Notes under the pieces: generated by a model
Told to the model about the DNA's origin: nothing
What the model saw: the letters and a program-made list of their open reading frames with translations, nothing else
Databases searched by the model: none
Source: Massilia varians
Lineage (GTDB): Bacteria > Pseudomonadota > Gammaproteobacteria > Burkholderiales > Burkholderiaceae_D
NCBI RefSeq assembly: GCF_027923905.1
Contig: NZ_AP026966.1
Span: 3,473,001-3,537,000 of the forward strand
Direction of reading: 5' to 3'
DNA: 64,000 bases
In this document: positions 799-24,502 of the stretch, piece after piece
Layout of the letters: every line of letters begins with the position of its first letter
Position numbering within the stretch: the stretch's first letter is position 1
Made by a program: the position numbers and the translations under genes

Positions 799-1923
799 TC
801 AGCGCGGCCGCAGCGCCGCGCCGAAGCGCGCCAGGCCCAGCGCGAACAGCAGCGTGCCGATTCCCAACAGCGCCAGCATGGGCCGCCATACCACCTCGCT
901 CCCGGCGCCACGGAACAGGATCGCCTGGCTGATGTCCACGAAATGGGTGGTCGGCGCCAGCAGCATCAGGTCGCGCAGCACCGGAGGAATGCTCTCGCGC
1001 GGCGTGGTCGCACCCGACAGCATCTGGAGCGGCAGCAGCGCCAGGATCACCAGCAGAGCGAACTGCGGCATGCCGCGCGCACTGGCTGCCATCAGGATGC
1101 CGAGCGAGGTGGTGGCGAACAGGTGCAGCGCCAGCCCGAGCAGGAACAGCGGCAAGGAGCCCTGCAGGCCAACCTGCAACAGGCCGCGCAGCACCACCAG
1201 CAAGGCCACCAGCGTCGCCAGCATCACCACCGCGGCCATCGACCATAGCTTGGCCAGCAGGATTTCCGCACCGCGCACCGGCATCGCCAGCAGGTGCTCG
1301 ACCGTGCCGTGCTCGCGCTCGCGGATAAGGGCGGCGCCGCTGAGGATGACCGACAGCATGGTGACATTGTTGATCAGCTCCATCAGGCCGCCGAACCAGC
1401 CGGGCGTGAGCGCGGGGTTGAAGCGCGCCCGAACCGTCAACGCGACGGGCGCGGCCTCCTGCACCCGCACGCCGCGCACGAAGGCCGTTACTTCGCCCAG
1501 CGCGATCTGCTCGACGTAGCCGCTGCCGGAGAATGCCTGGCTCATGCGGGTGGCGTCGACGTTCAACTGCAGCGCCGCCGCGCGCCCGGCCAGCACCCGG
1601 CGCTGGAAGCCGGCCGGGATCACCAGCACGAAGGTGGCGCTGCCGCGGTCCAGGCGCGCATCGAGCTCCCTCAGCCCGATCGTCTCGGGCGGGATGAACT
1701 GCGGCGCCAGAAATGCCTGGCGGATGCGCAGCGACAGCGCCGATCCGTCCTCGTCGACGATGGCGAGCGAGGTGCGGCTCAAGGTATCGGGCTGGGCGGT
1801 CGCGCCAAGATACACTGCCGCGGTGAAGCTGTAGACGATCAGGCCCAGCAGAACCGGGTCGCGCAACAGGCTCCACCATTCCTTGATGCCGAGGCGCCAC
1901 ACCTTGTTCCAGGACAGATTCAC
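799..1923 (-). CDS. yhhJ: ABC-2 type permease, YhhJ-like
   Basis: This 374-residue integral membrane protein has the ABC-2 permease layout: one N-terminal membrane segment (about residues 25-45), a large extracytoplasmic domain to about 175, then five or six membrane helices to the end. The family motif LSGATTPRESIP lies before the last helices. It is the last gene of a minus-strand set HlyD-like, RbbA-like, YhhJ-like, matching the E. coli yhiI-rbbA-yhhJ arrangement, where the proteins are predicted to form an export system. Only 1 base separates it from the upstream gene, so translation is probably coupled. The upstream ATPase gene is disrupted, so this permease may no longer have a working partner. 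Confidence 0.85.
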   Translation of the reverse strand: MNLSWNKVWRLGIKEWWSLLRDPVLLGLIVYSFTAAVYLGATAQPDTLSRTSLAIVDEDGSALSLRIRQAFLAPQFIPPETIGLRELDARLDRGSATFVLVIPAGFQRRVLAGRAAALQLNVDATRMSQAFSGSGYVEQIALGEVTAFVRGVRVQEAAPVALTVRARFNPALTPGWFGGLMELINNVTMLSVILSGAALIREREHGTVEHLLAMPVRGAEILLAKLWSMAAVVMLATLVALLVVLRGLLQVGLQGSLPLFLLGLALHLFATTSLGILMAASARGMPQFALLVILALLPLQMLSGATTPRESIPPVLRDLMLLAPTTHFVDISQAILFRGAGSEVVWRPMLALLGIGTLLFALGLARFGAALRPR

Positions 1924-1924
1924 G

Positions 1925-4616
1925 TTAGCGCTCCTGGCGCGGCAGGACCAGGATCGCCAGGCCGAGGATCACGGGAAGCGCCGCCAGCAGGGCCAGGAAA
2001 TCGGCGCGCAGGTCGCTCCAGCCGAGCGCCTTCGAGAATACGCCGCGGGCAATGCTCAGCATGTGGGTGGCCGGGTAGCTTTCCCCGATCAGCCTGCCGA
2101 CGCCCCCCAGCGTCTCGACCGGGTTGATCAGGCCGCCGAACTGGATCGCCGGCAGCATGGTGCCGATCATGGTGAGGAAGATCGCGGCGATCTGGCTGCG
2201 GGTGAAAGCCGAGGCCAGCAGGCCGATCCCGGTCGAGCAGATGCAGAACAGGAAGGCCGCCGCGCTCAAGGCCGCCAGGCTGCCCTTGAGCGGCACCCCG
2301 AACAGCGTCACGGCCAGCAGCGTCATCAAGGCGAAGTTCAGCATGGCCAGCAGCACGTAGGGCGCCGCCTTGCCGAGCAGGAATTCACTGCGCCGCAAGG
2401 GCGTGACGTACAGGTTCACGATCGGCCCCATTTCCTTCTCGCGCACGACCGCCAGCGCGGCCTGCATGGCCGGCAGGTTCAGCAGCAGCAGGGCAATGAT
2501 CGCCGGTACCATGGCTGGCAGGCTGCGCACGTCGGGGTTGTAGCGAAAGCGCGTCTCGACACGGGCGGGCAGCGCTCCCGCACCCGCGCCCGGGGCGCCG
2601 GCCATGGCGGCGCGGCTGCGCAGCCAGTGCGCGTGCATGCCCCGCACATAGGCTTCGGCCGTTTCGGCGCGGGGCGGATTGGCGCCGTCGATCCAGGCCC
2701 CGATCTCGACCTGGCGGCCGCGCTGCAGCGCACGGGCGAAACCGGGCGGGATCTCGATCGCCAGCGCCAGTTCGCCCGAGCGCATCCGGCGGTCCAGGTC
2801 GGCGTAGTCCGCCAGCGGCGGCCGCTCGCTGAAGTAGCGCGAGCCGGACAGGTTCAGCGCATAGTCGCGGCTGAGGGCCGTGGCGTCGCGGTCGAGCACT
2901 GCATAAGGCAAGTCTTCGACGTCCATGTTCAGGCCATAGCCGATCACGATCATCAGCAGCAGCGAGCCCAGCGTCGCCAGCAGCGCCCGCACCGGGTCGC
3001 GCAACAGCTCCAGGCTCTCGCGGCGGCTGCAGGCAGCGGTGCGCCGCAGCCAGCCGAAGCGCGCATCAGGCTGCGGCCGGGACGGCGGCAGCGCGGGCGC
3101 CGGCCGGCCCGCTTCGGGGTCGCTGTCGCACAGCCAGGCCACGAAGGCCTGCTCCAGGCTGGCCGCGCCGCGCTCGCGCTGGAGAGCGGCAGGCGCGCCG
3201 CAGGCCAGCACCCGGCCGGCGTGCATCAGCGCCACCCGGTCGCAGCGCTGGGCCTCGTTCATGAAGTGGGTCGAGATGAAGATCGTCACCCCTTCATGGC
3301 GCGACAGGGCCAGCATCTCGGCCCAGAAGGCGTCGCGCGACGGCGAGCGACAGGCGCTGGCGCACCCCCAAGGGCAGCGCATCCGGCATGGCGTCGAGCA
3401 CGGGCTCCAGCCCGAAGCGCCGCGCCAGGTCGGCGCAGCGGCGGCGCCCGCTGTCTTCGGGCAAATCGAACAGGCGCGCGTGCAGCAGCAGGTTCTGGCG
3501 CACGCTCAGCTCATGGTAGAGGGAAAACCCCTGCGACATATAGCCGACCCGGCGCCGGGCGCCGAGGTCGTGGCGGTCCACCTGCCGGCCCAGCACCCGG
3601 GCTTCGCCGCTGCTCGGTGCCAGCAGCCCGGTCAACATCTTCATGATGGTGCTCTTGCCGCAGCCGTTGGAGCCGATGAAACCGAAGATCTCGCCACGCG
3701 CGATGTGGAAGCTCACCTCGTGCACCGCGACGAACTCGCCGAAGCGGCGCGAGAGTCTGTGCGCCTCGACCGCCGGCGCGCCGTCTTCCGCCGGCGGCGC
3801 CTGCTGCGCCTGCGCGCCAAGCTCGCGCAGCGCCGGGCGCGCGGCCGCGCGCGCGGGCGGCAGCAGCGCCACGAAGGCTGATTCCAGGTCAGGGCATCCG
3901 CTGCGCGCCAGCAGCGCCGCGGGGCTGCCCGCCGCCAGTACCCGGCCGGCGTCGAGCGCCACCAGCCAGTCCATCCGGCCGGCCTCCTCCATATAGGCGG
4001 TGGCCACCAGCACGCTCAGGCCGGGGCGCGCGCGGCGGATGGCCCCGATCAGCTCCCAGAACTGCACCCGCGCGAGCGGGTCGACCCCGGTGGTCGGCTC
4101 GTCGAGGATTAATAAGTCAGGCTCATGAATGAGGGCGCAGCATAAGCCCAGCTTCTGCTTCATGCCGCCCGACAGCAGTCCGGCCGGGCGCGCCAAAAAG
4201 GGATGCAGGCCGGTACTGCGGCTCAACAAATCGATACGGGCGCGCGCCGCCGGCGTGTCCAGCCCGAACAGGCGGGCGAAGAACTGCAGGTTTTCCTCGA
4301 CCGTGAGGGCAGCGTACAGGTTGCGGCCCAGGCCCTGCGGCATGTAGGCGATGCGCGGGCTGACCCGGGTGCGAAAGCCGGCGTCGCCGATGTCCCCGCC
4401 CAGCACCTCGACCCGGCCGTGGCGGAAACGCCGCGCGCCGGCCAACACTGCGAGCAGGCTCGACTTGCCGACCCCGTCCGGCCCGATCAGGCCCGTCATC
4501 GCGCCGCCCGGGAATGCAAGATCGACATTGTCCAACGCGAGTACGCGCCTGTAATGCAGGCTCAGCCCGGCCACGCGCGCGCACGGCGGGATGGAGGGCG
4601 CCGTGTCCCCATTCAT
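1925..4616 (-). pseudogene. rbbA: rbbA-like ABC ATPase/permease, broken by a deletion and frameshift
   Basis: Two reading frames together make one RbbA-type protein (two ABC domains plus an ABC-2 permease, about 900 residues). The upstream piece (4616 down to 3294) has a complete first ABC domain ([29 protein letters not shown]) and a second domain with GSNGCGKST and the signature [11 protein letters not shown]. It then shifts frame and stops. The downstream frame (1925-3382) resumes at [10 protein letters not shown]-loop FISTHFMNE, followed by the permease. Comparison with the family shows that about 22 residues containing the second Walker B and D-loop are absent at about 3330-3350, and the net loss is not a multiple of three. 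Short GTCGCG-like homology at the junction suggests slipped deletion. The gene overlaps the upstream hlyD-like gene by 4 bases (ATGA). It is probably non-functional as a full protein; an assembly error is less likely because a whole motif is missing. Confidence 0.8.
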
Positions 4617-5701
4617 TGCCCGCTCCGCAAGGCCAGCGTCGGCGGCCAGGGGACACGCCGGTCGAGGCGCACCCAGGCCACCCCCGGCACTCCAGCCTTG
4701 ACATAGTCGGCATAGCGCGACAGCACCTGGCGGTCGACCTGGGCCTTGACGCGGAACATCAGCTTCTGGCGCTCGCTGGCCGTTTCCACCGACTTCGGGG
4801 TGAACTGGGCAGCGCTGGCGACATAGCTTACCCTGGCCGGCACAATGAAGCCGGGAGCGGTGTCCAGCTGCAGGCGCACCTCGGCGCCGAGCGCAACGCG
4901 GCCGGCGGCCGTCTCCGGAACGAAAAAGCTCATGAAGACGTCGGTCAGGTCGATCAGGTTCAGCACCGTCCCGCCGCCGGCCAGCACTTCGCCCGGCTGG
5001 GCCACGCGGTACTGGATGCGTCCGGCGCGGGGAGCGGTCAGCGCCAGCTCGCGCAGGTCGGCGTCGATGCGGGCGGTGGCGGCCACCGCCACCTCCACAT
5101 TCGAGCGCGCCTCCACCACCTGGGCCTGGGCCGCCTCGACTGCGGCAGATGCCGCCTCGCGCTGCGCCCGCGCCGCCATGACCGCCGCCTGCGCGCCGCG
5201 CACCCGCGCCTCGTCATCGTCCAGCTCCTGCGACGCCACCGCACCGGCGCCGGCCAGCGTGACGGAGCGCCGCAGGCGCCTGCCTGCGGCATCCAGTTCG
5301 CTTTCGCGCTGCACGACGCCGGCCGCCGCCGCAGCCTCGTCGCTGCGCCGCATCGCCAGGCCCGCCTGCGCCTGCGCCACCGCGTCGCGTGCCTGACGTT
5401 CACGCGCCACCGTCTCGGCCCGTTGCGCCAGCAGGGACTGCGCATCCATGCGCGCCAGCACCTGGCCGGCCGCGACCATGTCGCCCTCCTCCACCAGCAC
5501 TTCGGCAACGCGTCCGGGCAGGCGGGTGGCGATATCGATCTCGGTCGCTTCGATGCGGCCGTTGCCACTGACGAAACCCGGCCCGGGCTCCTGCTGGCGC
5601 GCCAGCCGCCACGGGCCGAGCGTCGCGCCGATGGCCAGCAGCGCCACCAGCGCCAATAGCCCGGCGCCGAGGCGCCACCCGCGCTGGGCCGTCGTCGTCA
5701 T
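4613..5701 (-). CDS. HlyD-family periplasmic adaptor, YhiI-like
   Basis: This 362-residue membrane-fusion protein has one N-terminal membrane anchor (about residues 9-28), a biotinyl-lipoyl-like half motif ([14 protein letters not shown] near residue 63), a long alanine-rich alpha-helical hairpin (about 95-210), the returning lipoyl half ([13 protein letters not shown]) and a beta-barrel domain. It would bridge an inner-membrane ABC exporter to the outer membrane. Its stop overlaps the start of the rbbA-like gene by 4 bases, and it begins 12 bases after the alcohol dehydrogenase gene ends, so it is probably co-transcribed from the hemerythrin-like gene onward. The reading frame is intact although its ATPase partner is broken. 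Confidence 0.85.
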
Positions 5702-5713
5702 GGGAAGCAGGAC

Positions 5714-6769
5714 CTAGGGCACGATCGCCACTTTCAGTACGCCATCGCGCTGGTTGGCGAACAGCTCGTAGGCTTCCTCGATCCGGTCGAGGGGGAAACG
5801 GTGCGTGACGAGGGGCCGCAAATCGACCCGGCCCGACGCCACGATATTCATCAGGCGCTGCATGCGATGCTTGCCGCCCGGACACAGCGTCGTGATCAGC
5901 TTGTGGTCGCCCAGCCCGGCGGCGAAGGCGTCCACCGGCAGGCCCAGCTTGCCGGAGTACACGCCCAGGCTCGACAGGGTCCCGCCCGGCTTGAGGGCGC
6001 GCAGGCAGCTCTCGAAGGTCTGCTGGGTGCCGAGCGCCTCGATCGTCACGTCGGCGCCCTGCCCGTCGGTCAGCGCGAGGATGGCCTGGACCGGATCGGT
6101 AGTCCGGTAGTCGATGACGTGGTCCGCGCCCAGCCGTTTGGCCATCTCGAGCCGCGCCGGCACGGTGTCGACCGCGATGATCCGGCTGGCGCCGCGCAGC
6201 CGCGCCCCGGCGGTCGCGCACAGGCCGATCGGCCCCTGTGCGAACACCGCCACCGTATCGCCGATGCGGATCGCGCCGTTCTCGGCGCCGCCGAAGCCGG
6301 TGCTCATGATGTCGGGGCACATCAAGACTTGCTCGTCGCTGAGCCCGCTTGGTACGGGGGCCAGGTTCGCGCTTGCGAACGGCACCCGCACGTACTCGGC
6401 CTGGCAGCCGTCGATGGTATTGCCGAAGCGCCAGCCCCCCATTGCACGGCCCCCGCACTGCGACTGGTGCGCTTCCAGGCAGGCATAACATTGGCCGCAG
6501 GGCGTAATCGCGCCGACCACGACACGTTGTCCGAGCGAATAACCCGCCACGCCCGCGCCGAGCTCGGCGATGACGCCGACGGGTTCGTGTCCGATGGTCA
6601 GACCGGGCTCGACCGGATATTCGCCTTTCAGGATATGGACGTCGGTCCCGCAAATGGTCGTCATCGTCACCTTGACGATGGCTTCGCCGGGACCTGCCCG
6701 CGGCACCGGCTTGCGCTCGAGCGCAATCCGCCCGGGCCCGGTGAATACTGCCGCTTTCATCATTTCCAT
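5714..6769 (-). CDS. Zinc-dependent secondary-alcohol dehydrogenase-like protein
   Basis: This 351-residue medium-chain dehydrogenase has the catalytic-zinc set (ICGTDVH and the following GHEP), a structural zinc loop with the four cysteines of CGQCYACLEAHQSQC, and an NAD(P)-binding Rossmann core (about residues 170-300). Segments such as IGHEPVGVIAELG, GNTIDGCQAEYV and MSTGFGGAE resemble bacterial isopropanol/secondary alcohol dehydrogenases, so interconversion of a short secondary alcohol and a ketone is the best guess. The start at 6769 (MEMMKA) is preceded by GGGAG five bases upstream. It lies 28 bases after the universal stress protein gene and 12 bases before the HlyD-like gene, in an apparent FNR-controlled operon. 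Substrate is unproven. Confidence 0.85.
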   Translation of the reverse strand: MEMMKAAVFTGPGRIALERKPVPRAGPGEAIVKVTMTTICGTDVHILKGEYPVEPGLTIGHEPVGVIAELGAGVAGYSLGQRVVVGAITPCGQCYACLEAHQSQCGGRAMGGWRFGNTIDGCQAEYVRVPFASANLAPVPSGLSDEQVLMCPDIMSTGFGGAENGAIRIGDTVAVFAQGPIGLCATAGARLRGASRIIAVDTVPARLEMAKRLGADHVIDYRTTDPVQAILALTDGQGADVTIEALGTQQTFESCLRALKPGGTLSSLGVYSGKLGLPVDAFAAGLGDHKLITTLCPGGKHRMQRLMNIVASGRVDLRPLVTHRFPLDRIEEAYELFANQRDGVLKVAIVP

Positions 6770-6797
6770 GGAAGCTCCCGTTGGTAGGAGAAAACAG

Positions 6798-7634: not shown

Positions 7635-7666
7635 TGGTCTCCTCCTTTTGGCGGTGTCGCCGGAAA

Positions 7667-8119
7667 CTAGGCCTGGCGCCGGCGCCGTCCCGCCCCATGC
7701 GGTATGGCGCGTCCAGGCAGCGGTCCCTGCGCCCCCGGCGAGCCGCGCGCCGTGGCCAGCATGCGCAGGCCGCAGAAGCGATGCAGCGACAGCAGGTCCG
7801 GCAGGGCCGCCACGACCTCCCGGCCCAGGCCCAGGTCGCCGGCCTCCACCCGCGGCGCCGCATGGTGCAGGGCACTGAGCAGCAAGGCATTGTCGCGGCG
7901 CTGCTCGACCACCCCGGGGAAGCCGATCGCATCCATCAGCGCCTCCTCATGGCGGAAGGCGGCCTCGATGGCAGCGGCCAGTTGCACGAACGCCGCGGCA
8001 AAACGCGCGTCAGGCTCGCCCCCGACCCTACGGACCTGTTCCAGCAGCAGCTTGCGCGCATGCGCCAATGCGCGGACAATCGTCCGGGCGGCCTGTGCGG
8101 GTCGTGACGAGGGGAGCAT
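7667..8119 (-). CDS. Hemerythrin-like protein with most metal ligands replaced
   Basis: This 150-residue helical protein aligns by eye with bacteriohemerythrins: FRHEEALM fits HFxxEExxM, GFP fits the xxP turn, and LLSLHR fits the last helix. Where the family has P-x4-H-x3-H, this protein has P-GVVE-Q-RRD-N, and the final HxxxxD aspartate is also absent. A normal di-iron oxygen site is therefore unlikely, although a stray HH pair (SALHHA) follows. The C-terminus is rich in Arg/Gly/Ala. It is the first gene of the minus-strand operon and starts 69 bases from the FNR-type palindrome. It may be a sensor or scaffold remnant rather than an oxygen carrier. Family call is moderate; ligand loss is read directly from the sequence. 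Confidence 0.6.
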   Translation of the reverse strand: MLPSSRPAQAARTIVRALAHARKLLLEQVRRVGGEPDARFAAAFVQLAAAIEAAFRHEEALMDAIGFPGVVEQRRDNALLLSALHHAAPRVEAGDLGLGREVVAALPDLLSLHRFCGLRMLATARGSPGAQGPLPGRAIPHGAGRRRRQA

Positions 8120-14807: not shown

Positions 14808-15101
14808 CTAGCCGGGATCCGGGGCGGGCCAGGGCCCGGCCGGCGCCTGCGCATACGCCGGGGCCCGGGTGTCGCCCACCACCGGGCGCAGCACCATCAC
14901 CGGTACCGGCGCATAGGCGAGTAGCGCCTGCGTCACGCTCCCGGCCAGCAGGCGCCCGATCCAGCGCCGCCCATGCGAGCCCATCGCGATCAGGTCGCAC
15001 CCGCGCTGGCGCGCCGCGGCTCGCGCAAGATCGATTGCGGCGTCGACGGCCGCTTGGGCCACCGGCGAGCCGTCGGTCGGCACCAGGATGCGTTTGTACA
15101 T
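14808..15101 (-). CDS. Universal stress protein with an internal in-frame deletion
   Basis: At 97 residues this is about 50 shorter than a single UspA domain. The N-terminus MYKRILVPTDGSPVAQAAVDAAIDLARA is normal for the first strand and helix, and the C-terminus (CDLIAMGSHGRRW, then LLAGSVTQALL) is the normal ATP-binding end. The middle strands and helices between LARA and AARQRG are missing. The complete paralogue at 22438 shows the same two ends separated by the usual middle. The frame is kept, and the tail continues with a Pro/Ala-rich extension. It lies between the full-length universal stress protein gene (21 bases away) and the diguanylate cyclase gene. It is unlikely to fold as a normal UspA unit. 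Confidence 0.8.
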   Translation of the reverse strand: MYKRILVPTDGSPVAQAAVDAAIDLARAAARQRGCDLIAMGSHGRRWIGRLLAGSVTQALLAYAPVPVMVLRPVVGDTRAPAYAQAPAGPWPAPDPG

Positions 15102-15122: not shown

Positions 15123-15560
15123 CTAGCGGTGCACCAGCACCGGAATCAGGCTGTGCACCAGCACTTTCTGCGTCTCGCTTCCCAGCAGCAGGCCCTTGAT
15201 ACCCTTGTGCCCATGCGAGGCCATCACGATCAGGTCGCACAGCCGTTCGCGCGCGGTGGCGATAATGGCCTCGTACGGCTCGTCGGAGACCACCTGCACG
15301 CAGCTGCAGGGCACGCCGGCGTCGCGCGCGACTGCCGCCACTTCGTCCAGAAGGCGCTCCCCGTGCGCCCTGGTGGATGCGACATACTGGTCGCGGGTTT
15401 GCTCCATCATCTCGGCATTGGCCGTGAAGGTATGGAATTCGGGCGTGGCCGTCATGCCGACCACCTCGGCGCCCAGACTTTTGGCGAAGTCGACGCCGGC
15501 CCGGATGGCACGCCGTGATGCCTCCGACCCGTCGGTCGTGAGCAGGATACGCTTGTACAT
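15123..15560 (-). CDS. Universal stress protein (UspA family)
   Basis: This 145-residue single UspA domain runs from MYKRILLTTDGSE (first strand and ATP loop start) to VMASHGHKGIKGLLLGSETQKVL, which carries the G-2x-G-9x-G(S/T)-type ATP-binding pattern. The ATG at 15560 is preceded by GGAGG five bases upstream, which favours it over earlier in-frame codons. It is the first gene after the perfect FNR-type box at 15687-15700, about 130 bases away. Downstream are the shortened universal stress protein, diguanylate cyclase and P-type ATPase genes, all closely spaced on the same strand. Expected role: ATP-binding stress protein in energy-limited or low-oxygen cells. Confidence 0.93.
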   Translation of the reverse strand: MYKRILLTTDGSEASRRAIRAGVDFAKSLGAEVVGMTATPEFHTFTANAEMMEQTRDQYVASTRAHGERLLDEVAAVARDAGVPCSCVQVVSDEPYEAIIATARERLCDLIVMASHGHKGIKGLLLGSETQKVLVHSLIPVLVHR

Positions 15561-15686
15561 GGCAACCTCCATGGAAATGCCGGCGCCGCCGGCAGGATGA
15601 TTCGAGCACGCGGTATTAGGCACCAGTTAGGCGGTTGCCATTTGAGAGAAACAGTGCCAGTTTGTCCCCCCAGGCTCGCAGTTTCT

Positions 15687-15714: not shown

Positions 15715-16722
15715 CTATCGACTTCCTTCCGGGACCAGTACCGCGGCGCCGTCGATCCTGCCGGCACGCAGCGCATCCAGCGCTTCGTTGGCCGCGCCCA
15801 GCGGGTAGGTCCTGACGGTGGTACGCAGCGCGCCGTGCGCGATCTGTCCGAAGAAGGCGTCGCCGTCGGCGCGCGTCAGGTTCGCCACCGAGCGCACGCA
15901 GCGCTCGCCCCACAGCAGGGCGTAGGGAAAGGACGGGATGTCGCTCATGTGGATGCCGGCGCACACCACGATGCCGCCCTTGCGGGTCGCCGCCAGCGCC
16001 TGCGGCACCAGTTCCCCGGCTGGCGCAAACAGGATGGCGGCGTCGAGCGGCGCCGGCGGCGCCGCGTCGGCGGCTCCGGCCCAGGCGGCCCCGAGCGCGC
16101 GGGCGAAGGCCTGCGAGCGCGTATCGCCGGGACGGGTGAAAGCGCAGACTTCGCGGCCCTGCTGCAGTGCCAGCTGCGCGACCAAGTGGGCGGATGCGCC
16201 GAAGCCATACAGCCCGAGCCGGCGCCCGCCCTCCGTCATCGCATAGGCGCGGTAGCCGATCAGTCCGGCGCACAGCAGCGGGGCCGCGTGCGCGTCGTCG
16301 TAGGCATCCGGGAGCGCATGGCAGTAACGTTCATCGGCCAGCGTGTAGTCCGCGAACCCGCCATGCCGGTCATAGCCCGTGAACGTGGCGCGCTCGCACA
16401 GGTTCTCGCGTCCGGCGCTGCAGAACGCGCAGGCGCCGCAGCTGCCCGCGAGCCAGGGAACGCCGACCCGCTGGCCCGGACGAAAGCGCTGCGCCAGCGC
16501 GCCGGCGCCGGTCACACGCCCGACGATCTCATGGCCGGGGATGAGCGGCATCAGGTGCGGGGGCAGTTCGCCGTCGACGATGTGCAGGTCGGTCCGGCAG
16601 ACGGCGCAGGCGCTTACCTTGATGAGGATGTCCCTTCCCTGCGCCCGGGGAAGCGCAAGCCTAGCCTTGCGCAGCGGGCGGCCGGGCGCATCGAGCAGCA
16701 TCGCTTCCATGGTGAGGCGCAT
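15715..16722 (-). CDS. Zinc-dependent alcohol dehydrogenase
   Basis: This 335-residue medium-chain dehydrogenase has the catalytic zinc ligand motif CAVCRTDLH, PGHEIVG, the structural-zinc loop CGACAFCSAGRENLC and a Rossmann segment GLYGFGASAH. It resembles the AdhA/AdhP-like group of bacterial alcohol dehydrogenases that interconvert alcohols and aldehydes with NAD(P)H. The start is taken at 16722, where TGATG couples it to the stop of the upstream glycosidase gene; a second ATG lies four codons in. It is the third gene of hsp20-like, glycosidase, alcohol dehydrogenase on the minus strand, and the IS481 insertion upstream may reduce its transcription. Confidence 0.87.
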   Translation of the reverse strand: MRLTMEAMLLDAPGRPLRKARLALPRAQGRDILIKVSACAVCRTDLHIVDGELPPHLMPLIPGHEIVGRVTGAGALAQRFRPGQRVGVPWLAGSCGACAFCSAGRENLCERATFTGYDRHGGFADYTLADERYCHALPDAYDDAHAAPLLCAGLIGYRAYAMTEGGRRLGLYGFGASAHLVAQLALQQGREVCAFTRPGDTRSQAFARALGAAWAGAADAAPPAPLDAAILFAPAGELVPQALAATRKGGIVVCAGIHMSDIPSFPYALLWGERCVRSVANLTRADGDAFFGQIAHGALRTTVRTYPLGAANEALDALRAGRIDGAAVLVPEGSR

Positions 16723-17475
16723 CACACGACGCCAGCCGGTGGCAAGCGCGCTGCCGGTCTCTCGAGCCAGTCGGGCGAGCATGCGGGATGATCGGTGTCG
16801 GCCAGCGCACCGCTCCAGGCCTGGATGATGCGGCGGTATTCGACGCCGGCACGGCGGATCCGGCGCGCCATGTCGTACAGGCCGTTGGCCACGACGTGGT
16901 GACGCTGCACGCGCAGGTCGATGTCCCAGTCGACCTGGTCGGTGAGGCTGTACCAGGTGAATCCGATGACCGGATGGTCCTCCTGGCGCAGGCGCAGGAC
17001 GTTCGCCCACTGGCGCTCCAGCCAGAATGCCGCGTTGAGCCCCTGGATCTGGTTGGTTTCTGTGAGCATGATCGGAAGCCGGTAGCGCTCGTAGTACTGC
17101 CGGGTCAGCCCGTAGTAGCCCAGCACGTTGGATCCGCGGGCGCTGCCGTCGGCGAACACCACGGACTCGCTCGACTCGTAGTAATCGGTACCCATGATGC
17201 ATTGCGGCCAGATCTTGCGCTGCAAGAAATAGTCGAGCCGGGAAGCTATCATGCCGTTTTCAGACAGGTAGGCGATCATCTGCTCCGATGGCCTGCGGGC
17301 GTAGTTCAGGTCGAGGCTCAGGAAACGGAGATCGTTCAGGTAGTCGGCCTGGGAAGCCGCGGCCGGATCGAAGGGGTGGTAATAACGGGTCGACTCGCTC
17401 TGCACGAACCACGGCTTGCACACCTGGCAGATCGCCTCGCTGGCACGCACGTTTGCCTCGACCACATGGCCTAGC
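16722..17475 (-). pseudogene. C-terminal part of GH1-like glycosidase, split by IS481-family element
   Basis: This is the 3' half of a glycoside hydrolase (about 250 residues). It continues exactly from the 5' fragment at 18508-19049: removing the IS and one copy of its CCTAGC duplication joins TALG to HVVEANVRAS in frame and gives a 429-residue product. The fragment contains MLTETNQ, a plausible nucleophile motif of family 1-type clan GH-A enzymes, and GFTWYSLTDQVDWD near the end. On its own it lacks the start and the acid/base region. The 3' end overlaps the alcohol dehydrogenase start. Substrate is unknown; beta-glycosidase-like activity of the intact ancestor is inferred. Confidence 0.8.
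17470..17475. repeat. Target-site duplication, left copy (CCTAGC)
   Basis: CCTAGC flanks the left end of the IS481-family element and is repeated at its right end. It fits the NCTAGN target preference I recall for IS481 itself. Confidence 0.9.
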
Positions 17476-18507
17476 TGTGATGTTTCAATAGGTTGTTCAT
17501 TCGGATTGGATTTGCGAAACTGGAAATCGCCAAACCCCCAGTTCTCAAGGAAACCAACCGAATGAACATCCATAAGAATGCCCGATTGACCTTCATCCGT
17601 CGAGTCGAAATGGTCGAAGACGTCCTGAAATCTCGTTTGCCTGATAGCCAAGCGGCGCAGTTATACGGCGTCAGCGCAGCAACCGTGCGCAAATGGGTCG
17701 GTCGCTTTCTCGCCGAGGGAAAGCCAGGTTTGGTTGACCGCTCTTCACGTCCTAACTGCAGTCCGCGTGCCATTGATGAATCGAAGGCGCTGACCATCGT
17801 TGAGCTGCGCAAGAAGCGAATGACGCAAGCACGCATCGCCGAGTATTTGTCGCTATCAAAAGCCACGGTAAGCCGTGTGCTCGGTCGTGCTGGCCTGGCG
17901 CGATTGTCGGATCTGGAACCGGCCGATCCAGTGAAGCGTTATGAGCACGAGAATCCGGGCGACCTCATACACATCGATACGAAGAAGCTAGGCCGGATCG
18001 AGAAGACCGGTCACCGGGCTACTGGTGACCGTCGTGACCGCAGCCGCGGTGCGGGCTGGGAAGTGTTGTTTGTGGCCGTCGACGATCATGCCCGGATTGC
18101 GTACACCGAGCTGCACCCTGATGAGTCACAGGAAAGCGCCTGCCGCTTCCTGGCGAACGCTCATGCGTATTACTGCTCGCTGGGTGCGAAACCCAAGCGG
18201 CTGCTGACCGATAATGGCTCGGCCTTCCGTGCAAAGAGTTTTAGCCGCGTTTGCACAGGGCTGGACCTGAAGCACCGTTTTACCAAGCCCTACCGGCCCC
18301 AGACCAACGGCAAAGCCGAACGCTTCATCCAGTCGGCGTTACGTGAATGGGCCTACGGCTTCGTCTACAAGAGCTCCGACGAGCGTGCAGCCACGCTGCG
18401 TGAGTGGATCCATCATTACAACTGGCATCGCCCGCACCAGGGCATCAGCGGCAAGGCGCCAATGTCCAGGCTCTCAACCAACCGAAACAACCTCTTGCAA
18501 CTTCACA
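17476..18507 (+). mobile_element. IS481-family insertion sequence, 1032 bp
   Basis: The element is bounded by imperfect inverted repeats of 22 bp with 19 matches. The left end begins TGTGATGTTTCAATAGG (17476-17497); the right end, read inward, begins TGTGAAGTTGCAAGAGG (18507 down to 18486). A 6-bp duplication CCTAGC sits on each side. It carries one DDE transposase. It interrupts the glycosidase gene in the opposite orientation, and the perfect duplication and exact restoration of frame point to a recent insertion. Confidence 0.92.
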
Positions 18508-18512
18508 CCTAG
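17562..18512 (+). CDS. IS481-family transposase
   Basis: This 316-residue DDE transposase has an N-terminal winged-helix/HTH region (about 1-110, with DSQAAQLYGVSAATVRKW and MTQARIAEYLSLSKATVSR) and an rve integrase core (about 130-300, including HIDTKKLGRI, LLTDNGSAFRA and PYRPQTNGKAERF, which supply the acidic residues). The ATG at 17562 (MNIHKNARL) is the family-typical start and follows AAGG. The stop codon TAG at 18510-18512 is not inside the element: it comes from the CCTAGC target duplication, so each insertion into such a site supplies the stop. Confidence 0.93.
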   Translation: MNIHKNARLTFIRRVEMVEDVLKSRLPDSQAAQLYGVSAATVRKWVGRFLAEGKPGLVDRSSRPNCSPRAIDESKALTIVELRKKRMTQARIAEYLSLSKATVSRVLGRAGLARLSDLEPADPVKRYEHENPGDLIHIDTKKLGRIEKTGHRATGDRRDRSRGAGWEVLFVAVDDHARIAYTELHPDESQESACRFLANAHAYYCSLGAKPKRLLTDNGSAFRAKSFSRVCTGLDLKHRFTKPYRPQTNGKAERFIQSALREWAYGFVYKSSDERAATLREWIHHYNWHRPHQGISGKAPMSRLSTNRNNLLQLHT

Positions 18513-18513
18513 C
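18508..18513. repeat. Target-site duplication, right copy (CCTAGC)
   Basis: Identical to 17470-17475. It also supplies the TAG stop codon of the transposase. Confidence 0.9.
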
Positions 18514-19049
18514 GCCGTGACGAAGGCCTGGTCGCTGCGCAAGGCCTCGTTCCAGTAGCCGCGCAAGGCCGAGTACTCGGCGGTCACGAGCATTTCGTTG
18601 ACCGGCGTGTACATCCAGACCCATGGAAAGCGGCGGGCAAATGCTTGCGCGTATTCCGCGAAATAGGCGGGGAAGTCAGGATTCTGGAAATCTCCCAGCC
18701 AGGCAGGCAAGCCGAAATGGCACAGGTCGGCAATCGGGACGATGCCAAGCCGGCGCAGCTCGGCGAAGGTCTCGTCGGCAAAGGACCAGTCGTAATGGCC
18801 GGGGCCGAGGTGGGTGCGGTGGTAGCAGGGTCCGTAGCGCAGGCAGCGCAAACCGAGTTCCTGCACCAGGTGGAAATCCTCGCGCCAGCGCCGGTCGTGC
18901 CCGGATGCGGCCATCTGGTCGATCCGGAGCGGCCGGCCGTCGGGACCCGCGATGACGGGGGCACTGTTCTCGATCCCGGTGCAGAACGAAAATGAACGAA
19001 GCAGGTTCTCGGGCGTCAGGGGCGGACAGGCCCGGCAGGTCGACGGCAT
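18508..19049 (-). pseudogene. N-terminal part of GH1-like glycosidase, split by IS481-family element
   Basis: About 180 residues of the glycosidase precede the insertion. The fragment starts MPSTCRACPPLTPEN at 19049, after a weak purine-rich ribosome site, and contains SFCTGIENSAPVI, then RYGPCYHRTHLGPGHYDW, and the likely acid/base motif YTPVNEM, all as in family 1-like glycosidases. Reading continues into the IS as a short unrelated tail ending near 18474. The gene begins 28 bases after the shortened hsp20 gene, so the two were probably co-transcribed. Confidence 0.8.
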
Positions 19050-19077
19050 TGTCTTGTTTCCCCCTGATGTCGCTGGG

Positions 19078-19458
19078 CTAGCGCCCCTGCCCCCCGCTTG
19101 CGCAGCCCTCATTGCACGGCAATTTGCTTCCTTCCCGTACCTGGGAGCCGCTGCAGCGTTCACTGCATACCGTGTCGCCGACGGTTTTTTGTTCCTGTTC
19201 GTAGATGGTGGCGCCGATGGACACCAGCCTGCCCTCCACCGGGATCTTGATGTCTTCTTCCTTGAAGCCGGGCATGTCCGCCTTCACCAGGCAGGCCTGG
19301 TCGGCTTTCTTCACGCCGATCCTGATCCGGCGCCCGTGCTCGACACTGCGCAGCGCCGGCGAGAGCGCGAAGTCGCGCATCGGATCCTCGATATTGCGCA
19401 AGCCGGACATGCGCATGACGTCGTGGAACGGCGCGAAACGGGTCAGGTTGTTGGCCAC
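19078..19458 (-). CDS. Small heat-shock protein (Hsp20), C-terminally truncated
   Basis: The 126-residue product begins at a GTG (19458) with AGGAG six bases upstream and reads MANNLTRFAPFHDVMRM, a typical Hsp20 start. The first half of the alpha-crystallin domain is present (CLVKADMPGFKEEDIKI, VEGRLVSIGATI, then SER.SGS). After LPCN the sequence becomes EGCASGGQGR and stops, so the last two strands with the family's GVL motif and the I-x-I tail needed for dimer and oligomer contacts are absent. It probably cannot act as a normal chaperone. It precedes the glycosidase gene by 28 bases. Family call is firm; the truncation is seen directly. Confidence 0.8.
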   Translation of the reverse strand: MANNLTRFAPFHDVMRMSGLRNIEDPMRDFALSPALRSVEHGRRIRIGVKKADQACLVKADMPGFKEEDIKIPVEGRLVSIGATIYEQEQKTVGDTVCSERCSGSQVREGSKLPCNEGCASGGQGR

Positions 19459-19840
19459 GATGTTCTCCTGGGTGAACGTGGAAATGCTGCCAGAGGTCCC
19501 CCTGCGGTTCTGCATCCGTGCGGACGGAAAAGCCGGGCCGCGATGCCGCCGTCTGCGGCCGTGCCCCACGGCTCGTCGTCCATGCTAGGAGTCGTCATGA
19601 CTGGTCGTATGAGGCACGTCAACGTGCGGCGCTTGAAAGCTTCAGAGTTACGGACCATGAAACGCCTCCCGGCGCGCCACGCCGTCGAACGCCCGGGCGC
19701 AGGCGGTGCGCAGCTGAGCGAGCCCGCCTGTACCGCCCGTATCGATCACGAGCGTGTATGCGCGCCAGCATGGCTGCGTGATCCGGACGTCTCCGCCCAT
19801 CCGGCCGGCCGCTTGGCTTGCGCTGGTGATCCTCCCGCGC
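19459..19840. other. 382-bp gap without a confident gene
   Basis: This lies between the hsp20-like gene and the end of the second PEP synthase gene. Minus-strand open frames exist (for example 19648-19914) but have no recognisable family, no good ribosome site and atypical residue use. I see no terminator with a T-run and no FNR-type palindrome. The segment may hold the hsp20 promoter and gene debris. Confidence 0.4.
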
Positions 19841-22276
19841 TCAGCCTGCAAACGGCATGCGCGCTGCGATACCGAGCGCACGCTCGACCTCGACCAGGTT
19901 GCGCACGGTGGCAAGCAGCGAATCGGGGTTCAGGCTGATCGAATCGATCCCCTGCTCCACCAGGTAGCGCGCCACCTCCGGATAGTCGGACGGCGCCTGG
20001 CCGCAGATCCCTACATGACGCCCGTTGCGCCGCGCACCGGCGACCGCCTGGCGCAGCATCTCGAGCACGCCGGGATCGCGCTCGTCGAAGTCGAAGGCCA
20101 CGATGTCGGAATCGCGGTCCACACCCAGCACCAGCTGGGTCAGGTCATTCGAACCGATCGAAAAGCCGTCGAACAGGCGCGCAAAAGCATCGACCTGGAT
20201 CACATTGTTGGGGATCTCGCACATGACGTAGACTTCCAGCCCGTCCACGCCCCGCTCCAGGCCGTGCGACGCCATCGCATGCAGCACGTCCTCGGCCTCC
20301 TTGACGCGCCGGCAGAACGGAATCATCAGGATCAGGTTCGACAGGCCCATGTCTTCGCGTACCCGCCGCATGGCACGGCACTCCAGCGCGAACCCTTCGG
20401 CATAGGCCGGATGCGCGTAGCGCGAGGCCCCGCGAAAGCCGATCATCGGATTGGCTTCGAGCGGTTCGAAGGCGGCGCCGCCGAGCAGGCTGGCATACTC
20501 GTTGGTCTTGAAGTCGGACATGCGGACGATGACGGGTTTCGGGTAGAAGGCGGCCGCGATCGTGCCGACTCCCTCGGCCAGCTCGCGGACGAAGTACTCG
20601 GCAGGCGACGCATGGCCGCTGGTGATACGGGCGATCTCGGCGCGCTGGCCTTCGTCGCGCACCTGGTCCGGATGAATCAGCGCCATCGGATGGATGCGGA
20701 TATGTTCCGCGACGATGAATTCCATGCGCGCCAGGCCCACCCCGTCGTTCGGCAGGAAGCGCGTGCGGAAAGCGAGGTCGGGGTTGCCGATGTTGACCAT
20801 CATGCGGGTGCGCGGCATGGGCAGGGCCGCCAGGTCGGTGATGGTCCGGTGGAACGGCAGGCTGCCGGCATACACGTGGCCGACGCTGCCCTCGGCACAG
20901 GACAGGGTGACGGGGTCGCCGGTGCGGATCGTTCGCGTCGCGTTGCCGCAGCCGACCAGGGCCGGCACACCGGTCTCGCGCGCCACGATGGCGGCGTGGC
21001 AGGTACGTCCGCCACGGTCCGTCACCACCCCGGCAGCGGTCTTCATGACCGTGCCCCAGTCCGGCATGGTGGTTTCGGCCACCAGGATCTCGCCCGGCCG
21101 GAACTGGCCGAGCTGGCCGATGTCGGCGATGACCCGCGCCGTGCCGGCCGCAACCCTGCTGCCCACGGCGCGTCCGGATGCCAGCACCTCGCCCTTGCCG
21201 TCGAGATGGTACTCGTCCAGCAGGGTCGCCGAGCGGCGCGCGGCGACCGTCTCGGGACGTGCCTGGACCACGTAGAGCTTGCCGTCGATGCCGTCCTGCG
21301 CCCATTCGATGTCCATCGGCACAGGGTGACCTGCCCGCGCGCCGTAGTGCTCCTCGATGCGCAGCGCGGCCTCGGCCAGTTCCAGCACGGCGGCATCGTC
21401 GAGGCAGTAGCGCGCCCGCGCGTCCGGCGCGGTCGGCACATTGCGCGTGGTGCCCGCGGCGCCCGCCTCCGCGTAGACCATCCGCACCTCCTTGCCGCCG
21501 AGGCTGCGCCGCAGCACGCTGCGGCGCCCCGCGCGCAGGGTCGGCTTGAACACATAGAACTCGTCGGTATCGACCGTGCCCTGCACCACGTTCTCCCCCA
21601 GTCCATAGGCGCCGGTAACGAGCACGACGTCGCGAAAGCCGGTCTCGGTATCGAGGGTGAAGATCACCCCGGAACAGGCCAGGTCCGAGCGCACCATTTT
21701 CATCACACCGACCGACAGCGAGACCCTGAAGTGGTCGAAACCGTTCTCGATACGGTAGACGATGGCGCGCTCCATGAACAGGCTGGCGAAGCAGCGCCGC
21801 ACGCTGTCGAGCAGGTCCGCTTCGCCGCTGACATTGAGATAGGTTTCATGCTGGCCGGCGAAGCTGGCGGTAGGCAGGTCTTCGGCCGTGGCGGAGCTGC
21901 GCACGGCCACCGTCAATGTTTCGCCATACTGCTCGCGCAGCGCGCGCCAGGCCTGCACGATGCCCTCCGCGAGTTCGGGCGGCAGGGGCGCGCCGTAGAC
22001 GATGTCGCGCGCAGTCCTGGCACGCCGCGTGAGCGCGGCCACGTTAGTATGGTCGAGTCCGTCGAGGGCCGCGTGCAGGCCATCCCATGCCCCGGCGCGG
22101 TCCAGGGTGGCCCGGTAGGCGGCCGCGGTCACGGCGAAGCCGTTCGGCACCCGCACGCCCTGGCCGCCCAGTTCACGCACCATCTCGCCAAGGGAAGCAT
22201 TCTTGCCGCCCACCAAAGGCACGTCCGCAATGCCCAGCTCTGCAAACCAGGAAATGAACTTGCCGGATGCTTCCAT
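19841..22276 (-). CDS. ppsA: Phosphoenolpyruvate synthase, second copy
   Basis: This 811-residue protein has the full PEP synthase layout: N-terminal nucleotide-binding domain ([31 protein letters not shown]), central phospho-histidine domain with [13 protein letters not shown], and C-terminal PEP/pyruvate-binding barrel (MVNIGNPDLAF, CGQAPSDYP). It converts pyruvate + ATP + water to PEP + AMP + Pi. GGGGAGGGG lies before the ATG. A second ppsA at 30778-33222 sits beside ppsR and is the likely housekeeping gluconeogenic copy. This one lies inside the stress island beside usp genes, so a role in carbon flow during oxygen limitation is inferred. Confidence 0.93.
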   Translation of the reverse strand: MEASGKFISWFAELGIADVPLVGGKNASLGEMVRELGGQGVRVPNGFAVTAAAYRATLDRAGAWDGLHAALDGLDHTNVAALTRRARTARDIVYGAPLPPELAEGIVQAWRALREQYGETLTVAVRSSATAEDLPTASFAGQHETYLNVSGEADLLDSVRRCFASLFMERAIVYRIENGFDHFRVSLSVGVMKMVRSDLACSGVIFTLDTETGFRDVVLVTGAYGLGENVVQGTVDTDEFYVFKPTLRAGRRSVLRRSLGGKEVRMVYAEAGAAGTTRNVPTAPDARARYCLDDAAVLELAEAALRIEEHYGARAGHPVPMDIEWAQDGIDGKLYVVQARPETVAARRSATLLDEYHLDGKGEVLASGRAVGSRVAAGTARVIADIGQLGQFRPGEILVAETTMPDWGTVMKTAAGVVTDRGGRTCHAAIVARETGVPALVGCGNATRTIRTGDPVTLSCAEGSVGHVYAGSLPFHRTITDLAALPMPRTRMMVNIGNPDLAFRTRFLPNDGVGLARMEFIVAEHIRIHPMALIHPDQVRDEGQRAEIARITSGHASPAEYFVRELAEGVGTIAAAFYPKPVIVRMSDFKTNEYASLLGGAAFEPLEANPMIGFRGASRYAHPAYAEGFALECRAMRRVREDMGLSNLILMIPFCRRVKEAEDVLHAMASHGLERGVDGLEVYVMCEIPNNVIQVDAFARLFDGFSIGSNDLTQLVLGVDRDSDIVAFDFDERDPGVLEMLRQAVAGARRNGRHVGICGQAPSDYPEVARYLVEQGIDSISLNPDSLLATVRNLVEVERALGIAARMPFAG

Positions 22277-22437
22277 GGTCCCCTCCCCGGTGCACGCATC
22301 GTATGTCGACCGATCGTATCCGAGGAATTTGACTATCGCTTAATCTGGCTCAATACTCTCCCATGCGAACGCGAGCCAGTTTCATGCAGTTTTGAGGCTG
22401 CGGGCGCATACTCTCCCACCTGCTCAAGGAGGACAGC

Positions 22438-22917
22438 ATGTACAAGCGCATCCTGGTGCCGACAGACGGTTCGCCCATCGCGACGCAGGCGGGCGACGCC
22501 GCGCTCCAGCTGGCCCGTGCCTGCGGCAGCGAGATCGTGGCGCTGTCGGTCGCCTTTCCCGAGGCATTCCTCGGCGGCGCCGAACGCGGACTCGTCAGCG
22601 GCGCCGGCCCCCAGGTCGACCGCATGCTGGCGGAGGCCGAGGGCCGTGCGGCCGCGGTGGCCGCGCGCGCGCAGGCCGCCGGCCTGGCGTCCGAGACGCT
22701 GGCCACCTACTCGCTCAGCCCGGGGGATGCCATCATCGATGCCGCCAGGGAGCGCCAGTGCGACCTGATCGTCATGGGCTCGCACGGTGCGGGCGGGCTC
22801 ACCGGCAAGATCGCCGGCAGCGTCACCCAGCATGTCCTCGCCTACGCCGCGGCCCCGGTCATGGTGCTGCGGCCGCCGCGGGCCGATGCGGCCGTGAGCG
22901 TTGCGGCCGGTTTCTGA
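22438..22917 (+). CDS. Universal stress protein (UspA family)
   Basis: This 159-residue single UspA domain begins MYKRILVPTDGSPIATQAG and ends with CDLIVMGSHGAGGLTGKIAGSVTQHVLAYA, a complete ATP-binding signature. AAGGAGGACAGC before the ATG is a strong ribosome site. It is divergent from the second ppsA, with about 160 bases between. No perfect FNR box is visible in that interval; the upstream region has a repeated ATACTCTCCCA (near 22353 and 22410) of unknown meaning. It serves as the reference for recognising the internal deletion in the 97-residue paralogue at 14808. Confidence 0.93.
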   Translation: MYKRILVPTDGSPIATQAGDAALQLARACGSEIVALSVAFPEAFLGGAERGLVSGAGPQVDRMLAEAEGRAAAVAARAQAAGLASETLATYSLSPGDAIIDAARERQCDLIVMGSHGAGGLTGKIAGSVTQHVLAYAAAPVMVLRPPRADAAVSVAAGF

Positions 22918-22954
22918 GCGGGCGCCATCCTGCGCCCTTCCCGACCCGCCACCC

Positions 22955-24502
22955 ATGACGCTCCCATTTCCCGCCCTGCTTCGCTCCAGCGCGCACAGGA
23001 CCGCATCCGTCCTGCTGCTGTACCTCGTGCTCGCCGCGTCGCCGCAGCGCGCGCCGGCCTTTGCCGCCCCGGTCGACGCCGGCGCCCTGGCGGCGCGCCT
23101 GTACGCGTCCGGCGCGCCGCCGCGCTGGCTGGAGCACGGGCAGGCGCCGGCACGGCTGGCACTGCGCCTGCTTGGGGATGCCGCCACCCATGGTCTGGAC
23201 CCGGCGCTCTACCGGACGGACGAGCTTGCTCACCAGCTGGATCGTGCGGTTTCCCCCGACGACAAGGCAGCGTTCGAGCGTGCGCTCAGCACCGCCATGC
23301 TGCAGTACCTGGCCGACCTGCATGCCGGCCGCACGCCTTCGCCTTACCGCCAGGACCAGGACGCGCTCGCGGGCTTCGATCCGGTAGCGGAGCTGCGCCA
23401 GGCTGCCGCCAGCGGCCGACTGGCCGACGCCGTGGATGCGGCCGCGCCCGCATTGCCGCTCTACGCCAGGGTGAAGGCTTCGCTCGCGCAGTACCGCGAA
23501 CTGGCGGGGCGGGCGCCGGAGTGGCCGGCCTTGCCGGCAGGCGCGGCGGCGCTGCGCGAGCGCCTGCGTCTGCTCGGCGACCTGGAAGGCGGTGTCGAAG
23601 AAGGCGACGCGGGTGCAGCGGGCTCCCCCGCCCTGGCCTCCGCCGTGCGGCGCTTCCAGGAGCGTCACGGCCTTGTCGAAGATGGGCGCGTGGGTCCCGC
23701 CACCCTGGCTGCGCTGGCCGTGCCGCCGGCGCAGCGCGCCGCGCAGCTCGCGCTGACGCTGGAGCGCCTGCGCTGGCTGCCGCCCTTGCGTGGACGCGTT
23801 ATCGCCGTCAACGTGCCTGCCTACCGCCTGTGGGCCTTCGACCTCGGCCAGGCGGCGTCCACGCCGCTCGAGATGCGGGTCATCGTCGGCAGGGCCGCGG
23901 GGACACCCACTCCCTCCTTCCTCGGTCACATGCGCGCAGTCGAGTTCAACCCCTACTGGAACGTGCCGCGAAGTATTGCTCTGGGTGAGATCCTGCCCAA
24001 ACTGGTTCATCACCCCGCTTACCTGCGCCAGAACGACATGGAACTGGTGGCGGCGAACGGCCAGGTGCTCGCCACCGCGGGGCCACAGGCAGTGGCTGCC
24101 CTGCGCACGGGCACCGCGCGGGTCCGCCAGCGCCCGGGCGCGAAAAACGCGCTCGGCAACATCAAGTTCGCCATGCCGAACCCGATGAACATCTATCTGC
24201 ATTCGACCCCGTCGCAGGAATTGTTCCAACGCGGACGCCGCGACCTCAGCCATGGTTGCATACGCGTGGAGCACCCGGCCGCGCTGGCCAGTTTCGTGCT
24301 GGCTGACCCTGACCGCTGGAGCGAGCAACAGATCGCCGCGGCCATGCGCCCGGGGCCGCCGCGAACGGTCAGCCTTGCCACCCCGGTGACCGTCATCCTG
24401 TTCTACGCCACCGCAGTGACGGACCGCCAGGGCCGTGTGCTGTTCGCGAACGACATTTACGGACGCGACCGGCAGTTGAGTGCAGCCCTGGCTTCCCGCT
24501 GA
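22955..24502 (+). CDS. L,D-transpeptidase, YcbB-like, with peptidoglycan-binding domain
   Basis: This 515-residue exported protein has a hydrophobic signal region (about 16-38, cleavage near AFA), a scaffold domain, a PG_binding_1 repeat (about 225-270, RRFQERHGLVEDGRVGPATL) and a YkuD catalytic domain (about 285-490). The catalytic motif S-H-G-C-I-R has its cysteine at residue 435. Such enzymes make 3-3 cross-links in murein in the periplasm and help survival when D,D-transpeptidases are limiting. The start at 22955 gives a normal signal peptide but has no obvious ribosome site; it follows the universal stress protein stop by 37 bases and may be co-transcribed with it. Confidence 0.9.
   Translation: MTLPFPALLRSSAHRTASVLLLYLVLAASPQRAPAFAAPVDAGALAARLYASGAPPRWLEHGQAPARLALRLLGDAATHGLDPALYRTDELAHQLDRAVSPDDKAAFERALSTAMLQYLADLHAGRTPSPYRQDQDALAGFDPVAELRQAAASGRLADAVDAAAPALPLYARVKASLAQYRELAGRAPEWPALPAGAAALRERLRLLGDLEGGVEEGDAGAAGSPALASAVRRFQERHGLVEDGRVGPATLAALAVPPAQRAAQLALTLERLRWLPPLRGRVIAVNVPAYRLWAFDLGQAASTPLEMRVIVGRAAGTPTPSFLGHMRAVEFNPYWNVPRSIALGEILPKLVHHPAYLRQNDMELVAANGQVLATAGPQAVAALRTGTARVRQRPGAKNALGNIKFAMPNPMNIYLHSTPSQELFQRGRRDLSHGCIRVEHPAALASFVLADPDRWSEQQIAAAMRPGPPRTVSLATPVTVILFYATAVTDRQGRVLFANDIYGRDRQLSAALASR

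Follow-up and report, generated by a model that had tools for sequence, protein, structure and literature searches.

A partly eroded, putatively FNR-controlled low-oxygen stress island of the lxa kind in Massilia varians

A 23.7-kb block in the genome of Massilia varians unites genes for universal stress proteins (Usps), alcohol dehydrogenases (ADHs), a small heat-shock protein and an acyl-CoA synthetase/GNAT fusion with two palindromes of the FNR type, raising the question of whether these genes form a jointly controlled low-oxygen island or are merely neighbors. We analyzed it within a window of 64,000 nucleotides (positions 3473001-3537000; GC content 66.8%), and the genome searched was a single contig of 5,575,375 bp. 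The gene list that the first-pass annotation had proposed for positions 799-24502 was borne out by Pfam, except for the hemerythrin-like ORF (Table 1). Two zinc ADHs, four Usp genes (one of them internally deleted), the synthetase/GNAT fusion, a P-type ATPase and a GGDEF protein were all recovered. The PEP synthase of the block is indeed a second one, besides another copy at 30778-33222, and Hsp20 is present, but with its tail missing or altered. Three features had not been listed earlier: an RbbA-type ABC exporter, an L,D-transpeptidase, and a GH1-like gene interrupted by an IS481 element. The segment behind the IS481 element was assigned to the GH1-like gene because both halves adjoin in the related genome G025.

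Table 1. Features of the M. varians block (positions within the window).
Feature	Position	Strand	Basis
Exporter genes HlyD / RbbA-type double ATPase-permease / ABC-2 permease	799-5701	-	Pfam
Zinc alcohol dehydrogenase 1 (ADH1)	5714-6769	-	Pfam; 87-91% identity, equivalent place in G042, G025, G014
Double-length Usp, 278 aa	6798-7634	-	Pfam Usp
Hemerythrin-fold-like protein lacking the standard iron ligands	7667-8119	-	Homologue alignments
FNR-type box TTGATCTAGATCAA	8188-8201	.	Exact TTGAT-N4-ATCAA
NDP-forming acyl-CoA synthetase-GNAT fusion, SHTG motif (His259) present	8301-10997	+	Pfam, PDB comparison
P-type cation ATPase, start approximate	11021-13591	-	Pfam, NCBIfam
MASE8-GGDEF diguanylate cyclase	13569-14798	-	Domain search
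Usp with internal deletion of ~70 residues	14808-15101	-	Alignment vs 5 relatives
Usp, first gene behind second box	15123-15560	-	Pfam (longer ORF 15123-15623)
FNR-type box TTGATGTAGATCAA	15687-15700	.	Exact TTGAT-N4-ATCAA
Zinc alcohol dehydrogenase 2 (ADH2), TIGR02822 family, start approximate	15715-16707	-	Pfam, NCBIfam
GH1-like gene, C-terminal part	16722-17475	-	No Pfam match of its own; halves adjacent in G025
IS481-family element	17476-18507	+	Transposase; target duplication CCTAGC at 17470-17475 and 18508-18513
GH1-like gene, N-terminal part, upstream end approximate	18508-19000	-	PF00232
Hsp20 ORF with lost or altered C-terminal part	19078-19569	-	Pfam; alignment vs G042, G025
Accessory PEP synthase	19841-22276	-	Pfam; copies at 78-86% identity in 12 further genus genomes
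Weak box-like site TTAATCTGGCTCAA, 8/10 positions	22340-22353	.	Between PEP synthase and Usp
Usp	22438-22917	+	Pfam
L,D-transpeptidase, start uncertain	22901-24502	+	Pfam

Both palindromes proved to be exact, as had been read from the letters. Dinucleotide-shuffled versions of the window contained on average 0.02 exact boxes, and none of 100 reached two; when one mismatch was allowed, the window still held just these two, compared with a shuffle mean of 0.38 (4/100 reaching two). The first box lies between divergent genes; from its center it is 75.5 nt to the hemerythrin-like start and 106.5 nt to the synthetase/GNAT start. The second box, which closely follows the end of ADH2, has its center 133.5 nt upstream of the start of Usp 15560; behind this Usp, on the same strand, come the internally deleted Usp, the GGDEF gene and then the P-type ATPase. 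ADH2 itself was rejected as the gene headed by this box, as it ends upstream of it on the same strand, and the box precedes Usp 15560. The PEP synthase promoter has an 8-of-10 site at best; a site identical to the weak one at 22340-22353 occurs at the corresponding promoter of G025. Genome-wide there are eight exact sites, against one for the reversed pattern, and two of the eight lie 7.5 kb apart inside the block (binomial P ~5e-4). The chance of any two among eight random sites falling within 7.5 kb is 0.072, so that the clustering, judged on this genome alone, is only suggestive, and the weight rests on conservation in relatives.

Which protein would read the boxes? The genome contains three matches to the Crp family (PF00325), none of them inside the window, and the island has no FNR-family gene. 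In one of the three, L089 (~3.737 Mb), residues 20-245 align to FNRs of solved structure (E 2e-61), and the protein has a CX2CX5C motif, a central cysteine and an E..SR recognition helix; by these sequence features, it is a true FNR with cluster cysteines. Five of the six exact sites outside the window could be assigned to genes. One falls within the 5'-terminal part of an ORF for COX1 (ccoN-like) as called, the true start of which is probably downstream, since the domain begins at residue 41; the others precede genes for OmpW, a protoglobin-PAS protein, a chemotaxis receptor and an HDOD protein. Massilia belongs to the Oxalobacteraceae, as does Herbaspirillum. According to the accessible part of PMC5934665, Fnr proteins of Herbaspirillum seropedicae directly activate fixNOP and ompW1, which are Fnr1 targets, and uspA_1 and uspA_2, which are targets of Fnr1/Fnr3. 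Part of that target set thus recurs in M. varians at the ccoN-like and OmpW genes.

The boxes could instead be read by a CRP/FNR-type protein without an Fe-S cluster, in which case the trigger would be another signal. L090 (~4.327 Mb), another of the three Crp-family proteins, would fit this role: its recognition helix, ETVSR, resembles the ESISR of FNR, it lacks an N-terminal cysteine cluster, and a Usp gene lies within 2 kb of it. However, a true FNR is encoded in the same genome, and the exact motif also occurs at the ccoN-like and ompW genes, whose Herbaspirillum counterparts are given as FNR targets in the accessible part of PMC5934665. We therefore regard control by such a protein as unlikely, and take FNR as the probable reader of the boxes.

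The next question is how firmly the block holds together. The genes are not unlinked in all relatives: in G042 and G025, the bulk of the block is conserved with little change in gene order, and linkage is patchy across the genus. At a threshold of E 1e-50, a synthetase/GNAT match was present in 62/62 genus genomes. With the M. varians genome included, ADH2 was found in 12/62 and the second PEP synthase (at least 78% identity) in 13/62. The island-type GNAT and PEP synthase genes co-occur in eight genomes, in seven of them (M. varians again included) within 25 kb on one contig; in the eighth, G028, the two are on separate contigs.

Judged from alignments to these relatives, the island is eroding in the M. 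varians strain. The RbbA gene is split by a 65-nt gap and a change of frame into the ORFs 3294-4616 and 1925-3382, whereas in G042, G025 and G014 the matched region of its counterpart reads through as a single open frame of 905-912 codons; the RbbA model NF033858 matches 1928-3382 with its positions 432-909, a score below the cut-off for that half. Usp 14808-15101 has lost ~70 central residues relative to five relatives, and the tail of Hsp20 is missing or altered relative to G042 and G025. The IS481 element interrupting the GH1-like gene (1,032 bp by reading of its ends) is one of three near-identical copies. A Usp gene with its box that lies between HlyD and ADH1 in G042, G025 and G014 is absent in M. 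varians, and the region between the hemerythrin-like and GNAT genes measures 181 nt compared with 227-243 nt in these three. The second, GNAT-side box that G042 and G014 have in this region is absent too; the first (75.5 nt) is kept.

These losses (the IS481 insertion, the RbbA and Usp deletions, the altered Hsp20, and the disappearance of the GNAT-side box and of one Usp together with its box) are what would be expected if the block were a general accessory stress island with boxes that are relics, ancestral FNR control being irrelevant in the decaying copy. Yet the two surviving boxes are perfect, and many genes are open and alignable with those of relatives: ADH1, ADH2, the PEP synthase, two single Usps and the double Usp align along most of their length, and the same is true of the GGDEF protein, the ATPase and the transpeptidase. 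We hold this explanation to be quite improbable, and retain FNR control as the preferred reading of the surviving copy.

Conservation of the boxes was followed at the GNAT gene. Island-type copies were defined by at least 70% identity and occur in 17/62 genus genomes, that of M. varians included; a box was counted if 9 or 10 of its 10 positions matched within 250 bp upstream of the gene. Such boxes precede 11 of the 17 orthologues (15 sites altogether), whereas after shuffling of the sequences 0.055 genomes on average had a site, and no round out of 200 reached 11. In the 13 other genus copies for which the locus was returned (30 loci altogether), four at 62-64% and nine at 57-61% identity, no box was found within 250 bp (Fisher 11/17 vs 0/13, P 3e-4, relatedness being ignored). 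Other genera of the family, as delimited by the collection's own classification, which differs from NCBI names, were represented by 18 genomes hand-picked, mostly as best-scoring, out of 125 with matches among 294 searched. There, the box was present in 12/18, a divergent Usp gene within 1.5 kb in 12/18, and both in 9/18. A box within 250 bp of the GNAT gene is thus absent from 6/17 island orthologues and from 6/18 genomes of the other genera.

The position of the boxes recurs as well. In 14 of the 23 box-bearing genomes, a box lies 64-76 nt before the GNAT start, and others are at 28-200 nt; a second box stands 65.5 nt before GNAT in G042 and 64.5 nt in G014. The distance to the hemerythrin-like gene is 74.5 nt in G042, 75.5 nt in G025 and 80.5 nt in G014 (with an approximate start), and the counterpart of Usp 15560 is preceded by a box at 106.5-186.5 nt in the same three genomes. 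In nine genus relatives, 16 of the 88 exact genome sites fall within stretches of 38-40 kb around the GNAT gene: 4/9 in G042, 4/12 in G014, 3/14 in G019, 2/9 in G054, 1/11 each in G043 and G061, 1/12 in G018, 0/6 in G025 and 0/4 in G048. The binomial P is ~1e-7 for G042 and for G014; because the genomes are related, the counts are not independent. Three genomes without the island-type gene have exact sites too (16 in G010, 11 in G016, 12 in G021). Since relatives have boxes at comparable positions ahead of these genes, and a cysteine-cluster FNR is encoded in the genome, the joint FNR-type control that the first-pass annotation had proposed appears well supported. That the stress genes are merely neighbors and the palindromes coincidental, a view for which the 0.072 obtained from M. 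varians alone might speak, is rejected as highly improbable on the recurrence of the boxes at these positions in relatives and other genera.

The protein encoded next to the first box had been called hemerythrin-like, and this name stands only in part. Pfam gave no match even at E 5, and the hemerythrin models of NCBIfam reach no better than 4e-5, which falls short of their cut-offs. In myohemerythrin, the di-iron ligands include H54, H73 and H77, and alignment to that protein showed the hemerythrin set of histidine ligands to be missing: the island protein has A54 and Q73 at the aligned ligand columns, and N77 by extension of the alignment. A loss confined to the M. varians strain was rejected, as N77 is invariant and H54 is lacking in 26 homologues chosen from the 69 found; H73 is retained in some of them, e.g., P0058.

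On the other side of the box, the best PDB matches of the synthetase/GNAT fusion are entries described as 'protein acetyltransferase' (9it0, E 7.6e-201; 9isq, E 6.6e-200). Like PatZ/Pat, the island protein consists of an NDP-forming acyl-CoA synthetase followed by GNAT. In contrast to PatZ/Pat-type chains, which are without the SHTG histidine, its synthetase domain has it: in the alignment, His259 falls on the SHTG motif of an ADP-forming 4-hydroxybutyrate-CoA ligase, and 9it0 and 9isq have a gap at this place. Histidine was found in 55/57 motif matches from 73 loci, a count obtained with a search pattern that itself selects the motif. The synthetase domains of type I GNATs are described as inactive in the accessible text of PMC8556138; the island protein, which retains His259, would seem not to share the trait of a synthetase domain without catalytic histidine.

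These features allow a narrower proposal, which we consider conceivable but rather unlikely: that the old core of such islands is an FNR promoter between Usps and a still catalytically competent ADP-forming synthetase/GNAT, made together, with the latter acetylating the Usps. The promoter would be two-boxed in some Massilia, and its Usp side would include the ligand-less hemerythrin-like protein in several Massilia. When respiration stalls, FNR would cause the Usps and the synthetase/GNAT to be made together; the synthetase would convert acetyl-CoA to acetate and ATP, and the GNAT domain would acetylate the neighboring Usps, coupling stress proteins to the acetyl-CoA pool. The nearest precedent found is mycobacterial Pat, which acetylates a Usp (PMC8556138, accessible text).

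Is such an island new? That such a contiguous betaproteobacterial block is novel had been suggested, which does not hold, and a wholly new kind of island is rejected on the literature on the low-oxygen-activated (lxa) locus of Burkholderia cenocepacia. In the accessible parts of the sources, lxa (BCAM0275-BCAM0323) is described as 50 genes with six Usps, Hsp20 and a zinc ADH, induced by low oxygen and likened to DosR (PMC6127331), and it is associated with anoxic persistence (PMC6127331; PMC9733578). By described gene content, it resembles the M. varians island in being contiguous and in having several Usps, Hsp20 and a zinc ADH, but it is larger, whereas the M. varians copy is smaller and partly broken. 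Further, lxa carries its own FNR gene, BCAM0287 (PMC4505428, in part), and the M. varians island has none; FNR-box-like motifs are found at promoters of the island itself in M. varians, and on the B. cenocepacia side at low-oxygen-induced genes generally (same source). The locus is reported missing from strain H111 (PMC3759415, PMC9104464, both in part), and patchiness is therefore known for lxa too. Within the Oxalobacteraceae, H. seropedicae has three Fnr orthologues, compared with the one cysteine-type FNR found in M. varians, and the accessible part of the same paper describes no island of such a kind in the Fnr1/Fnr3 regulon (PMC5934665).

More distant parallels exist. A region of pSymA in Sinorhizobium meliloti 1021 (NC_003037, 605735-644362) encodes homologues of the GNAT (47%) and of ADH1 (69%), with three Usp-like matches and P-type ATPase matches within 38.6 kb; it holds ten box-like sites, three of them exact, a count made without a chance control, and its gene order is unlike that of the M. 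varians island. The record itself comes without gene annotation, and the region may be under FixK control. The parallel to the DosR regulon of mycobacteria, through Usps and alpha-crystallin, is functional and an analogy only; DosR is a different type of regulator from FNR. In alphaproteobacteria, to go by the accessible parts of the sources, uspA is a predicted core member of the FNR regulon (PMC2908626), expression of a small heat-shock gene depends on FnrN (PMC11784457), and the genes induced by microoxia include Usp and GNAT genes (PMC6515984).

Taken together, we think it likely that the block is an accessory island of stress and energy genes for low oxygen, of the lxa kind, bound by FNR at two boxes and now being lost step by step. 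Very probably, it would switch on at low oxygen under FNR control; the genes, the boxes and their recurrence in relatives, the FNR gene and the lesions are established, and operon structure, FNR binding, the oxygen response and a role in physiology and survival are what we infer. As oxygen falls, [4Fe-4S] FNR would dimerize and bind both boxes. The first would drive the leftward hemerythrin-like, Usp and ADH genes and, to the right, perhaps also synthetase/GNAT, and the second the Usp-Usp-GGDEF-P-type ATPase series. The Usps, Hsp20, the ATPase and the exporter would protect proteins and membranes, the ADHs would dispose of reducing equivalents, and the synthetase/GNAT and PEP synthase would handle acetyl-CoA and PEP.

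No paper on Massilia Usps with Fnr was found in the open-licence literature searched, and none on a divergent Usp/box/synthetase-GNAT promoter among titles and abstract openings; this promoter may perhaps have gone undescribed so far. It recurs in several genera (box and Usp in 9/18 chosen genomes), and the hypotheses of Usp acetylation and ATP yield are therefore easy to test. The island would extend lxa-type hypoxia islands to Massilia, and the M. varians strain would offer a snapshot of such an island under loss.

The RbbA-type exporter gene (window 1925-4616) carries a 65-nt deletion, which falls in the stretch aligning with the second ATPase domain; the gene has an open frame in three relatives. 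Two mobile elements also lie in the window. The transposase ORF of the IS481-family element, of which the genome holds three near-identical copies, extends into the duplicated target, which supplies its stop codon. The group II intron matches Rfam group-II-D1D4-3 at 30468-30638, on the minus strand.

Mobile elements in the window
Element	Position	Strand	Features
IS481-family element	17476-18507		6-bp target duplication CCTAGC
Group II intron	28950-30638	minus	reverse transcriptase/maturase ORF; Rfam match

Elsewhere in the genome, a second Crp/Fnr protein (locus L090 and G000:C1:4324944-4325378) is without the N-terminal cysteine cluster. Its neighbours are an ORF for a LuxR-type regulator and a universal stress protein (Usp), and an exact FNR-type box occurs at 4337716, about 10 kb away. 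A protoglobin-PAS protein gene also has an exact box, about 250 nt upstream (L001, G000:C1:218167).

The ligand-poor hemerythrin-like family (alignment A1, 26 proteins) had matches at E ≤ 1e-6 in 56 of the 62 genus genomes, and in G010, G055 and G057 Usp genes and box-like sites adjoin its copies.

In several other genera (L188, L189, L192, L193, L195, L198, L201), a fragment of a P-type ATPase was seen 4-6 kb past the gene for the acyl-CoA synthetase/GNAT fusion. Box-like sites come after this fragment; one of them reads ATGATGTCGATCAA, with a one-base difference in L195, and this is the site reported for ccoNOQP of Rhodobacter (PMC2908626). The region is probably the cbb3 cluster.

The gene mix of Sinorhizobium meliloti pSymA 605735-644362 (L202) resembles that of the island. 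This region encodes an ADH1 homologue with 69% identity and contains ten box-like sites, which together suggests a gene set common to alpha- and betaproteobacteria.
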